From: Fibrobacter intestinalis
GTDB lineage: Bacteria > Fibrobacterota > Fibrobacteria > Fibrobacterales > Fibrobacteraceae
Direction of reading: 5' to 3'
Length of the DNA: 64,000 bases
Assembly (NCBI RefSeq): GCF_900167415.1
Contig: NZ_FUWU01000005.1
Location: 1-64,000, forward strand
The position numbers and the translations under genes are program-made. A model generated the notes under the pieces. It was not told where the DNA came from and made no database searches. It saw only the letters and a program-made list of their open reading frames with translations. Positions 3,884 through 41,260 of this stretch are shown here, piece by piece (within the stretch, counting starts at the first letter, position 1; every line of letters begins with the position of its first letter).

Positions 3884-3972
3884 ATGGGATTTGTCGCTAT
3901 GAAAATGGCGGGACAGTTTGCCCGCCTGATTAGGTTGAACCTGGGTCTTTCGACCAGCTCACGATAATATGT

Positions 3973-4912: not shown

Positions 4913-5040
4913 AGCCGAGTGTCGCAAAAATATGCTTGCATATTTTTCCTCAAAGAGGATAACTCAACAACGAAACTAAAGTTTCGAGTTTCGTATATAT
5001 GACCGAGGCGAAGCGGCGGACGCCGAAGGCGTCAAAACTT
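4913..5040 (+). repeat. Composite repeat (families B and E)
   Basis: Begins with the family B head (GCAAG..CGAGTGTCGC), then a perfect hairpin AAAAATATGC-TT-GCATATTTTT. Next comes a family E hairpin CGAAACT-AA-AGTTTCG at 4971-4986, flanked by GGATAACTC and TCGTATA, and then the family B tail ATGACCGAG...GACGCCGAAGGCGTCAAAA. One module appears nested in the other. Confidence 0.65.
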
Positions 5041-5130: not shown

Positions 5131-5232
5131 GCCAGACTAAAGGCTGGCATCGTTCCACTGGAATTGATTCAGCCCGTTGGGCTTTATCGTTCAAATAGGA
5201 ATGCACGCCAGCATAGCTGGCGAGTGTCACGA
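5131..5232 (+). repeat. Insertion 1 in carB (102 bases, in frame, no stop)
   Basis: Lies between GVIV and QFGGQ codons. It is 34 codons long, keeps the frame and has no stop. Imperfect hairpins mark its ends (GCCAGACT-AA-AGGCTGGC at the left, GCCAGCATAGCTGGC at the right), with AGCCC-GTT-GGGCT inside. It ends in the GAGTGTC head typical of family B. Confidence 0.7.
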
Positions 5233-5559
5233 CAGTTCGGTGGCCAGACCCCGCTGAACATCGCCCGCGCCCTCTCCGACGAAGGCGTCAAGATTCTCGG
5301 CACGAGCATCGACTCCATCGACATCGCCGAAGACCGCGACCTGTTCCGCAAGATGATGGATAACCTCGGCATCCCGATGCCGGAAAGCGGCATGGCCACG
5401 AACATCGACGAAGCCCTCGCTTGCGTCAAGCAGATTGGCGGCTACCCGGTGATGATCCGCCCGAGCTTCGTTCTCGGTGGCCGCGGCATGGAAGTCATCT
5501 ACGACGAGAACATGCTCCGCGAATACGTTGCCAAGGCTGTCGGCGTGACCCCGGACCGT

Positions 5560-5640
5560 CATTCACAAGACCGTTCGGCTTTACAAGCCTCACTCTCGCA
5601 AACGCACTCAGCTTGCGCTTGAGTGCTTCTTTGTTCACGG
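5560..5640 (-). repeat. Insertion 2 in carB (81 bases, family A, inverted)
   Basis: Read on the minus strand it is CCGTGA, a hairpin with arms GCACTC and GAGTGC, then GCGAGAGTGAGGC and GAACGGTC, the same layout as insertions 3 and 5 but with a different hairpin stem. Its length is a multiple of three, but it brings a stop at 5620-5622. Confidence 0.65.
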
Positions 5641-5670
5641 CTCATCGACCGCTTCCTCCACAACGCTCTC

Positions 5671-5747
5671 CTGTGAGCCGTAGGCGACTCGTCATAACTA
5701 GTCGTCGAAGGCGAGAGTGGAGCGTGAGCGGAACGGTCTCCATAGGC
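5671..5747 (+). repeat. Insertion 3 in carB (77 bases, family A)
   Basis: GTGAGCCGTAGGCGACTCGT opens an almost identical copy of insertion 5 (6171-6246); both end GCGGAACGGTC..CATA. It lies between HNAL and EADAL codons; the expected Glu-Cys pair is missing, suggesting a small loss at the junction. Confidence 0.7.
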
Positions 5748-5873
5748 GAAGCTGACGCCCTCTCTGACGGCGAACACGTTTACATCCCGTCCGTGATGGA
5801 ACACGTGGAACTTGCCGGTGTCCACTCCGGTGACTCCGCCTGCATTATCCCGCCGGTGACCATCACTAAGGAA

Positions 5874-6002
5874 TAGCGTGCAAGCGAGTGTCGCGACGAA
5901 ATGCTCGCATTTCGGCATGACCGAGCGCCGCCGCGGACGCCTATACGAAACTAGCCACTTTAGTGGCTTAGTTGAGTATCCCCTTTGGGGAAAAGGCGTC
6001 AA
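5874..6002 (+). repeat. Insertion 4 in carB (129 bases, families B and E)
   Basis: Family B head GTGCAAGCGAGTGTCGC, hairpin CGAAATGC-TC-GCATTTCG, then ATGACCGAG; a family E module with hairpin AGCCACT-TT-AGTGGCT at 5953-5968; and the tail GGCGTCAAA. It sits between the ITKE and NLATIK codons, and the flanking carB frame is the same on both sides. Confidence 0.7.
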
Positions 6003-6170
6003 AACCTCGCCACCATCAAAGATTACACGCGCAAGATCGCTGAAGCCCTCCACGTGTGCGGCCTCATGAACATGCAGTATGCCATCGAAGACGGCAAGGT
6101 GTTCGTCCTCGAAGCCAACCCGCGCGCAAGCCGCACGGTGCCGCTGGTCTCCAAGGTTTGTAACACGCCC

Positions 6171-6246
6171 GTGAGCCGTAGGCGACTCGTCATAACGAGT
6201 CGTCGGAGGCGAGAGTGAGGCTGTAAGCGGAACGGTCGTCATAATC
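6171..6246 (+). repeat. Insertion 5 in carB (76 bases, family A)
   Basis: Nearly identical to insertion 3, with a perfect hairpin CGACTCGT-CATA-ACGAGTCG. About 50-55 CarB codons are missing at this site, so it marks an insertion plus deletion, or recombination between two repeats. Confidence 0.7.
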
Positions 6247-6588
6247 GAAGTCCTCGGCCTCTCCGACGACTACGCCCTCGCTTACTACAAGAGCCAGGAA
6301 GCCGCCGATTCCTTCCTCCCGAACGAAGGCGCTGTGCTCATCAGCCTTTCCGACAAGGTGAACCTCTCCGAACAGGCTATCGAAATCGGTAAGGAATTCC
6401 AGAAGCTCGGCTTCAAGATCTACGCTACCGAAGGCACCGCCAAGTTCTATGAGAAGGCCGACGTGAAGTGCGAAGTGGTGAACAAGATTGCTGAAGGCCG
6501 CCCGAACGTCCTCGACATCATCCTGAACAAGCAGGTGAACCTCATCATCAACACGCCGTGGGCAAAGCGCGACGCCATCAAGGACGAC

Positions 6589-6665
6589 AAATGCCAAGGG
6601 CGAGTGAAGCAGGATTGCTTGCAAGCCTATTTCCGAACCCAGCATTTGGGAGCCGAAGGATCCAA
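6589..6665 (+). repeat. Insertion 6 in carB (77 bases, family B-like)
   Basis: Contains GGGCGAGTGAAGC and the hairpin TTGC-TT-GCAA with AGG/CCT outer arms, then CCGA and GAGCCGAAGG. It shifts the frame of the nine-codon carB piece that follows, but the next insertion restores it (77 + 79 = 156). Confidence 0.6.
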
Positions 6666-6692
6666 AGTGCCATCCGCAAGGCCGCCATCAAA

Positions 6693-6771
6693 AGTGTGCA
6701 AGGTGAGTGTCGCACAAAAATGCTTGCATTTTTGTATGACCGAACCGAAGCCACGGACGCGAAGCGTCAAC
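6693..6771 (+). repeat. Insertion 7 in carB (79 bases, family B)
   Basis: GTGCAAGGTGAGTGTCGC head, perfect hairpin ACAAAAATGC-TT-GCATTTTTGT, then ATGACCGAACCGAAGCC and the GACGCGAAGCGTC tail hairpin. The reading frame from 6334 stays open through it. Confidence 0.7.
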
Positions 6772-6900
6772 TACAAGGTTCCCTACATCACGACCCTCGC
6801 CGGTGCCTACAACACTGTCAAGGGAATCGCCGCCGCAAGGAACGGACATGGTGCTGTGAAGAGCCTCCAGGAATACCATGCGACCATTGAAGAGATTTAA

Positions 6901-9314: not shown

Positions 9315-10212
9315 CGTCATTCTCCATATAAAATTTGCTTCCAAATGTAATTATTTTGCAAAAGTCGTCGGTGCTTGTGGTACGATGCGGCGTACAAATC
9401 GCACAAAACCGCAGTCAGCTTACGCCTAGAATACTGTGATCTCGCTGCTTTATAAAATGATGCAGTGCGCCTCGGTTAAATTTTAGGGGATTATATACAA
9501 AATTCCACCCGATTGGCTCGTAATCGATTTCTCCAAAGCTTTCAAAGTCCAGCGGAGTGAGCAGAAGAAATATTTGCTTTTGTTCTTACTGCGAAAAAGG
9601 ATTGCTTCGTTGCACTCGCAATGACGGGAAAAGATCCATTTCCAAGCGTGTGCATTGTCATTGCGAGGAGCAAAGCCCTATGAGTCTTGGGAACTTGTTC
9701 CCTTAGACGAATTGTCCCTTGCAGGGATACTTCAACTATGGAATCGGAGATTCCAAGTTTCAGGGATGCGCAGCCCCATCATAAATTGTAATTCGCTTCG
9801 TCTATGCGCTTTGGAATGTTCCCAAAGCCCATTTTGGCATCGTGCCGAATGCCAACCAGTGAAAAAAGCAAGCGATATAATGCCAACGGTCCGTCCGAGA
9901 ACCTCCTTTCGACATCTTCTGCAAGGAAAAATCATTCCTTTTTGAAAGCGACCGTCATTGCGAGCGTTAGCGCGGCAATCTTTTACGGAACAAGTCTCCA
10001 AGGCTCATGAGGCTTTGCACAATTCGTCTAAAGGAGCAAAGCTCCTAAGACTCATGAGGCGAGCATTTCACAATCTGCGAGAAGAAATTCACCGTGCGTC
10101 TCACTTTGAAAAAAATTTTAAGTGAGAGTATTTGGTGGAAGATTGTATATGATTTTCAAATTTTACTGTACATTTAAGCACTGAAAAGAGATGTTTTGCT
10201 ATATTTGCAGCA
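9315..10212. other. Intergenic repeat-rich region
   Basis: About 900 bases without a supported gene. It holds one full family D repeat (9671-9775), a partial inverted family D copy around 9990-10065 with hairpin GGAGC-AAA-GCTCC at 10033-10045, and several CATTGCGAG...GGCAATC-type dispersed repeats (about 9600, 9655, 9955). The last 70 bases are AT-rich and presumably contain the promoter of the helicase gene. Confidence 0.5.
9671..9775 (+). repeat. Family D repeat, dispersed copy
   Basis: ATGAGTCTTGGGAACTTGTT opens the motif, with hairpin GGGAAC-TT-GTTCCC at 9689-9702 and a second hairpin GGAATC-GGA-GATTCC. The same unit occurs three times in tandem at 24601-24894 and again near 40.8 and 41.2 kb. 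Confidence 0.7.
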
Positions 10213-24313: not shown

Positions 24314-25283
24314 TTCGCTTTAAATATTAGTTTTTTTCATCAAAACAGGGAACTTGGCAAAAGCAAAAAGCCGAAAATGCCTGAAAAACCGTCATTGCGA
24401 ATCTGCCAAGGAGAAAATCCGTCACATTTGAACGCGACCGTCACCCCGAACCCCAAAGGGGTTATACGACACTTGTCAATTTATTGACTTAGTGGAGTTA
24501 TACTCGAAGTGTAGAAGCAATCCTTTTTCCGCAGATAGGATTGCCACGGCGCTATCGCGCCTCGCAATGACGAGATGCCAGACAAGATTGCTTCGGCTTT
24601 GCATCCCTGAAACTAGGAATCTCCGATTCCGTAGTTGAAGTATCCCTGGAAGGGACAATTCGTCTAAGGGAACAAGTTCCCAAGACTCATGGGGCTTTGC
24701 ATCCCTGAAACTAGGAATCTCCGATTCCATAGTTGAAGTATCCCTGGAAGGGACAATTCGTCTAAGGGAACAAGTTCCCAAGACTCATGGGGCTTTGCAT
24801 CCCTGAAACTTGGAATCTCCGATTCCATAGTTGAAGTATCCCTGGAAGGGACAATTCGCCTAAAGGAAGCAGAACTTCCAAGGCTCATGGGGCCTTGCTC
24901 GCAATGACGAGGTGCCTGCCAAGATTGCCACGTCGCTCTGCTCCTCGCAATGACGGACCGCTGACGATGACTTGCGCTCCATTTGACGAAGACCGATATT
25001 GCTTCGAAATAGGCTTTTTTCATTTACTTGAAGCCCGAAAACGAGAAAAACGGCTGGCAGCTGATAACTACCAACTCCCCACTCCGCCCCTTTTTTGCTA
25101 AAAAAGGCGTTTGGTATCACATGTAAACGCAAAAATAGGGGGTAAGCGAATAAAAAACTACCCTTTCCCCAAAAAAAAGGATAGTTTTCAAGCGAATAAA
25201 AGCGACTTTTGGCAAAAGCCGTTTTTTGGCTGTCATTTGCGGACTCCTGTGCACGGGATGATGCGATTGGTTTTGGAGATGTT
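24314..25283. other. Intergenic region with repeats, upstream of the fibro-slime gene
   Basis: Roughly 970 bases without a supported gene. It contains a family E copy (24465-24500, hairpin GTCAAT-TT-ATTGAC), a tandem array of family D (24601-24894) and CATTGCGA...-type repeats at about 24392, 24540 and 24890. The last 150 bases hold AT-rich stretches, including an A-run after CCCTTTCCCC, and presumably the promoter of the next gene. Confidence 0.55.
24601..24894 (-). repeat. Family D tandem array, three copies of 98 bases
   Basis: Copies start at 24601, 24699 and 24797, exactly 98 bases apart, each beginning GCATCCCTGAAACT on the plus strand. In copies 1 and 2 the first hairpin is GGGAAC-AA-GTTCCC; in copy 3 it is GGAAG-CAGAA-CTTCC (24865-24879), with base changes on both arms. 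The second hairpin GGAATC-TCC-GATTCC is constant. Confidence 0.85.
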
Positions 25284-40796: not shown

Positions 40797-40903
40797 CGCC
40801 CCATGAGCCTTGGAAGCTCTGCTTCCTTTAGGCGAATTGTCTCTTCCAGAGATACTTCAACTATGGAATCGGAGATTCCCAGTTTCAGGGATGCGCAGCC
40901 GTG
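40797..40903 (+). repeat. Family D repeat, dispersed copy
   Basis: Same unit as at 9671 and 24601, with the first hairpin changed on both arms to GGAAGC-TCT-GCTTCC (40812-40826). The second hairpin GGAATC-GGA-GATTCC is kept. Confidence 0.7.
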
Positions 40904-40980
40904 GCAATCCTTGTGGGCATCCCGTCATTGCGAGCAAGGCGAAGCAATCTTGGCTGCGTGAAAAGGATTGCTTCTACACT

Positions 40981-41090
40981 TCGAGTATAACTCCACTAAG
41001 GTAACAAAGTTACCAAGTGTCGTATATCCACATAGAGGATAACTCCACTAAGTCAATAAATTGACAAGTGTCGTATAACCCCTTTGGGGT
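40981..41090 (+). repeat. Family E repeat, two modules
   Basis: Two modules with flanks ATAACTCCACTAAG and CAAGTGTCGTATA enclose different hairpins: GTAAC-AAA-GTTAC (41001-41013) and TCAAT-AA-ATTGA (41053-41064). The second also occurs inverted at 24475-24488. Confidence 0.7.
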
Positions 41091-41176
41091 TCGGGGTGAC
41101 GTAAAAACAACCGCCAGCTCAAGGAACGCAAGCGAGCAGACTCCTGTACACAATCCGTCCCAGCGAGGAACAAAGC

Positions 41177-41260
41177 GACCCATGAGTCTTGGGAACTTGT
41201 TCCCTTAGACGAATTGTGCAAAGCCCCATGAGTCTTGGGAGCTTCGCTCCTTTAGGCGAA
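41177..41260 (+). repeat. Family D repeat, partial copies
   Basis: Two partial units in a row, with hairpins GGGAAC-TT-GTTCCC and GGAGC-TTC-GCTCC (41238-41250). Confidence 0.6.

Follow-up and report, generated by a model that had tools for sequence, protein, structure and literature searches.

A two-hairpin repeat of about 51 nt in Fibrobacteraceae that enters the loops of other palindromic repeats, a probable structure-addressed mobile element

Here, we describe a small repeat, termed family E, that is most probably (a probability of roughly 0.6) a non-coding, non-autonomous mobile hairpin element of the Fibrobacteraceae, about 51 nt long, composed of two hairpins, addressed by its structure and entering the loops of palindromes. 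It was studied in a window of 64,000 nt, which is the whole stretch of Fibrobacter intestinalis DNA analysed (contig NZ_FUWU01000005.1, positions 1 to 64,000), from a genome of 3.29 Mb in 116 contigs (G000). A protein with a Fibro_Slime domain and the named relatives of TopB, which are distant Fibrobacterota, indicate that this genome belongs to the Fibrobacteraceae. The unit has a defined size, its stems covary, it is present or absent at orthologous sites with clean junctions, it is nested in many hosts and it forms tandem arrays. E enters other palindromic repeats at their loops, mostly loops of the TTCG type and without target duplication, and can amplify in head-to-tail order as well. Beyond insertion itself we infer the mechanism. 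Folded as single-stranded DNA, the acting strand would probably be the one opposite to that first read, and recognition would rely on shape and a few fixed unpaired letters (a tandem GA/GA, a T/TT bulge and a TT loop), so that the Watson-Crick letters of the stems would be free to change in pairs.

The family is real: every copy quoted in the preliminary description was recovered, and the pattern ACTCNAC..GTNTCGTA matched five times in the window, where 100 dinucleotide shuffles averaged 0.01 matches and never gave more than 1. The four settings named there are correct, but they hold five copies. Nesting of two of these within B-type repeats was also correctly seen; the two occupy different sites and point in opposite directions. 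Copy 1 (unit 4947-4997, core 4962-4995, plus strand) comprises a first hairpin, HP1, of TCCTC-AAA-GAGGA, the letters TA and a second hairpin, HP2, with the stem CGAAACT/AGTTTCG, and separates the first hairpin of its B-type repeat from the TATGACCGAGG part. Copy 2 (unit 5942-5991, core 5944-5977, minus strand; HP1 TCCCC-AAA-GGGGA, HP2 stem GCCACT/AGTGGC) sits in a B-type repeat within a carB fragment, in the loop of the GACGCC..GGCGTC palindrome of that repeat. The remaining three copies share a different host palindrome, GATTGCTTC^ACCCC..GGGGTTCG. Copy 3 is a single unit (24463-24513, core 24465-24498, minus strand) with the stem GTCAAT/ATTGAC, while copies 4 and 5 form a two-unit tandem array on the plus strand. 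The first unit of the array (40975-41026, 52 nt, core 40990-41024) has HP1 TACAC-TTC-GAGTA and the stem GGTAAC/GTTACC with an AAA loop, of which only GTAAC/GTTAC had been recognised; the second (41027-41077, 51 nt, core 41042-41075) has HP1 TCCAC-ATA-GAGGA and the stem GTCAAT/ATTGAC. Directly 5' of the array lies the left half of the host palindrome, GGATTGCTTC (40965-40974, plus strand), and directly 3' the right half, ACCCCTTTGGGGTTCGGGGTGACG (41078-41101, plus strand).

The flanks previously taken for enclosing sequence belong to a longer hairpin, in which the outer pair shows covariation (A:T, C:G, T:A, G:C), and a second small hairpin adjoins it upstream, so that the repeating unit grows from the smaller one first described to about 51 nt. 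It consists of HP1 (a 13-nt hairpin), TA, HP2 (a 34-nt hairpin core) and a further TA, begins with TCC.. and ends with ..TATA. Exactly 51 nt were found in 136 of 159 copies, and nearly all cores among the matches listed are exactly 34 nt long despite their differing inner stems. Pairing in HP2 reaches 97-99.7% (97.2% of cells across 57 different cores). Double-sided changes in this hairpin number 127; shuffles give 36, and sliding the pairing partner gives no more than 22. Its covariation score is 0.504 versus 0.144. The outer pair occurs as A:T, T:A and C:G, and as G:C in genome G102. HP1, directly upstream, has five pairs and a loop that is mostly AAA or ATA, and its 28 double-sided changes exceed both the mean (9.4) and the maximum (18) of the shuffles. 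Two adjacent hairpins, both covarying, thus make up the dispersed unit. Where HP1 is normal, 27 variants of HP1 and 17 of HP2 form 46 combinations, and therefore the choice of one hairpin does not fix the other. In a second subtype HP1 is replaced by GCTCCWTCGAACCTA. Tandem arrays have a period of 51-52 nt, the same as the unit, with two or three units in the window's genome. An array of five 51-nt units in G102 (L341, contig C1, around 211.5 kb) is perfect or near-perfect and carries the new G:C outer pair.

The copies in the window are not isolated cases. The same pattern matched 45 times in the window's genome versus 0-1 times for the reversed control, and a covariance model detected at least 49 copies there (E <= 1e-6). 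At E <= 1e-4, copies were found in 82 of the 168 genomes of the phylum, partly draft assemblies, and all 82 belong to four genera of Fibrobacteraceae; the possibility that only the few copies first seen exist is thereby dismissed. Relatives free of E include G031, G058 and the genus g4. No match to the full pattern was detected among the viral contigs of IMG/VR, and a phage origin was rejected on this ground. A search of largely open-access literature returned no description of the element in Fibrobacter.

Comparison of orthologous sites directly supports the earlier proposal that one small element was repeatedly inserted into others. In the spacer at around 149.8 kb of G061:C6, no palindrome is present in five relatives (G039, G081, G020, G054 and G026). 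Three others (G027, G071 and G096) have the palindrome GATCCCCGCCTTCGCGGGGATGACA without E, and in G061 itself this same palindrome holds E in its loop. This is the one site at which an orthologous gain of E alone was followed base by base. A second orthologous locus (L192) yielded no clean comparison of E alone among the matches listed, because the relatives differ across the entire spacer. In the window, GGATTGCTTC^ACCCC..GGGGTTCG is the host interrupted by the array at 40975-41077, and the window's genome also contains this host 13 times empty, with the exact junction. The spacer between the dnaQ-like gene and topB measures 60 nt in G102 and 80 nt in G101 between aligned gene ends, compared to more than 900 nt in the window; these two orthologues lack the whole composite of about 900 nt. 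Presence and absence at homologous sites are hence documented, as for double-hairpin elements, and the copies occupy many different host palindromes. Flanks around E are complementary to each other, with a mean longest run of 4.97 against 4.23 for mismatched flanks, the highest of 1000 control resamples being 4.51. Type II elements sit at N^TCG in 30 of 31 cases and type I elements mostly at TTC^G. Filled and empty junctions, compared at GGATTGCTTC^ACCCC and CCTTC^GCGGGG, revealed no target duplication, and no terminal inverted repeats of E were seen. E thus shows neither of the features expected of a classical MITE.

The two copies nested in B-type repeats likely stem from two insertions, since they differ in position within B, in orientation and in stem. 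The proposal of repeated insertion needs one amendment, namely that composites of B and E also travel whole. Each such composite of the window recurs in other species (L053, L118, L137 and L212), including other genera and G102: that of copy 1 in G018 (L053), and that of copy 2 in G102 (L118), G061, G095 and others. Composites therefore spread too, and not every nested copy represents a separate insertion. At the orthologous spacer of L254-L283, different species carry different palindromic repeats (GATCCCCGC.., GGCCCTTCGG.. and GATTGCTTC..), so the hosts are probably mobile and variable in their stems as well.

The carB sequence that surrounds copy 2 is a partial copy (5224-6900) split by several palindromic repeats, and its pieces are mostly 86-96% identical to the genome's own carB copies on contigs C66 and C100. 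Two full-length carB genes exist elsewhere (C25 and C66). Since the window holds a partial copy and the genome has these full-length genes besides, introns or programmed skipping in carB were rejected. A carB fragment of G102 contains the same nested B and E insertion in the corresponding place. A further gene fragment, named by eye as a putative threonyl-tRNA synthetase, is split by a composite of B and E at around 30.8 kb of G000:C32 (L030). The sole Rfam match in the window is the DUF3800-XI RNA (3911-3961, minus strand, 53 bits), itself a small hairpin motif.

Read on the strand opposite to that first described, the core of E takes the form GA-NNNN-T-stem-TT-stem'-TT-NNNN-GA, in which GA faces GA, the bulge is T/TT and the loop is TT. 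The unpaired letters TC/TC, equivalent to GA/GA on the opposite strand, are present in all 74 distinct full-length copies, against 18 different inner stems. The combination of fixed unpaired letters with freely varying paired letters suggests that the folded shape is recognised by something in the cell. RNA helices usually tolerate G-U pairs, whereas HP2 contains neither G-T nor A-C among 468 cells from 39 distinct cores, so we infer that selection or correction on HP2 operates at the level of DNA. DNA rather than RNA would be the folded form, and a structure-specific enzyme the mover. The acting strand is probably the GA strand. A weak indication in the same direction comes from HP1, where 20 A-C versus 6 G-T cells on the first-read strand correspond to wobble pairs on the GA strand, although this asymmetry concerns only 26 mutually dependent cells.

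The GA letters also brought out other hairpins of the window. When all 16 dinucleotides were scanned at the GA position, GA gave 15 hairpins, as did its complement TC, and each of the 14 remaining dinucleotides gave 0-1. The GA hairpins are E plus two further families, F and G, that differ from E in stems and flanks. Family F is represented by GA-GTCT-T-GGGAAC-TT-GTTCCC-TT-AGAC-GA at 24660-24688 (minus strand), with further hairpins at 24758-24786 (minus), 41184-41212 (plus), 9682-9710 (plus), 10024-10053 (minus) and 40805-40835 (plus). Family G is represented by GA-AACT-N-GGAATC-TCC-GATTCC-NT-AGTT-GA at 24609-24638 (plus strand), and further members lie at 24707-24736 (plus), 24805-24834 (plus), 40857-40886 (minus) and 9732-9761 (minus). 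At 24.6-24.8 kb the two families alternate with a tandem spacing of roughly 98 nt. In 20-kb stretches of the G102 and g6 genomes the scan yields mainly E and the GA position is not generally enriched beyond it; F, G and the class of shared design are therefore established for the window's genome only. E, F and G are unrelated in sequence and have an unpaired core in common (GA/GA, an asymmetric bulge and a short loop), from which one may tentatively propose that a single enzyme reads a fold of single-stranded DNA and inserts hairpins into hairpin loops. If true, elements of about 50 nt would be transposed by a system that is addressed by structure.

Other explanations have to be weighed against the mobile element. 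E might have spread passively without any dedicated enzyme, through template switching at hairpins and recombination between repeats, while correction of quasi-palindromes perfects the stems. The almost strictly Watson-Crick stems, the 51-nt tandem arrays and the movement of whole composites (B plus E, host plus E) fit such a process, as does the absence of a mobilising gene among the Y1 and IS110 genes surveyed, and the perfection of the stems could indeed stem from palindrome-correcting template switching without selection on shape. Correction would, however, erase unpaired letters such as the invariant TC/TC, and neither the precise 51-nt unit in many hosts nor the repeated choice of similar insertion sites (N^TCG, TTC^G) is readily accounted for, so we regard passive spread as rather unlikely. 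That E is kept as an RNA structure, be it a terminator, a stabiliser or a small RNA, seems improbable. Its strong covariation and its intergenic position, more often between convergent than divergent genes (30 versus 12, in the other genus), would agree with a function in transcripts, but HP2 has almost no pairs of the G-U type, close relatives differ in the presence of E, and no Rfam match covers it. Moreover, a fixed transcript is made less likely by the orientation of E in tandem gene pairs, which is opposite in two genera (30:14 versus 2:24; genes are simple ORFs, and for the own genome overlapping loci and array units were counted as well).

Two further explanations invoke known transposases. 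We surveyed Y1 and IS110 transposases in 111 genomes of the family and found no mobilising gene for E among them. As a short, intergenic, imperfect hairpin with a bulged T, a T-rich loop and many copies, E resembles a REP sequence mobilised by a Y1 (IS200/IS605-like) transposase, and Y1 genes (PF01797) do occur in 44 of these genomes, including that of the window. They are nevertheless absent from the complete and E-rich genomes G056 (28 copies) and G061 (25 copies), gene and element counts do not track each other, and none of the 30 Y1 gene neighbourhoods contains a hairpin of the E design. Nor does E have a 5' signature of the GTAG/GGAG type, the conserved 5' letters of HP2 being ATAACTC and those of the other strand TATACGA; a REP/RAYT-type origin is hence hardly credible. 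The Y1 genes at G000:C21, C30 and C50 each gave matches to two disjoint parts and look broken. E might alternatively be the remnant (MITE) of an insertion sequence that targets palindromes, for instance of the IS110 or IS3 family. REP hairpins are known targets of such elements, one of which lies at the symmetry axis, and some lack direct repeats (PMC1525189). With neither terminal inverted repeats nor target duplication seen, and with IS110 transposases in only 12 of the 111 genomes and none in the window's own genus, this origin is very improbable.

Compared with known systems, the mobile element E shares several traits and matches none fully. Like the REP, BIME and REPIN sequences associated with RAYT, it is a short, intergenic, imperfect palindrome that is non-autonomous and occurs in clusters; unlike them it has no linked Y1 transposase and no GTAG signature, its stems vary freely and it sits in palindrome loops. 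Integron attC sites are recognised as a folded single strand by their shape and unpaired bases and have a variable terminal stem. E may be likened to them in this mode of recognition, but it has no visible R and L boxes and no cassettes and is far shorter. The SDR sequences of cyanobacteria, from Elhai and colleagues, are reportedly very small repeats with compensatory changes that are found inside other repeats; by this account E is alike in tiny size, compensatory changes and nesting, and differs in phylum and sequence. To our knowledge, a two-hairpin unit with a GA/GA core has not been found among SDRs. Insertion sequences that target REP palindromes include IS621 (IS110 family), IS1397 (IS3 family) and ISPsy8, of which ISPsy8 inserts at the hairpin symmetry axis, and ISPa11 is without direct repeats (PMC1525189). 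These are complete insertion sequences that encode a transposase, whereas E has 51 nt and no gene. The DHE of fungal and the RHE of sponge mitochondria are non-coding hairpins or double hairpins of tens of bases, mostly intergenic, dispersed and mobile as judged by comparison (PMC2800124). E works alike as a small, dispersed, mobile, non-coding hairpin, a likeness of function, but it is located on bacterial chromosomes and has fixed unpaired letters; within the phylum its matches are confined to Fibrobacteraceae. It further differs from the mitochondrial elements in its preferred target, the loops of palindromes, and in a nested insertion that can be dated.

For the movement of very small hairpin elements such as DHE, RHE and SDR there is, as far as we know, no convenient bacterial model. 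The boundaries of E are known, as are empty sites and a preferred target; its unpaired core is fixed, and there are dozens of related genomes as well as cultured family members, so that its mobiliser can be hunted. From its naturally free stems and fixed mismatches one can read off which hairpin features matter for recognition.
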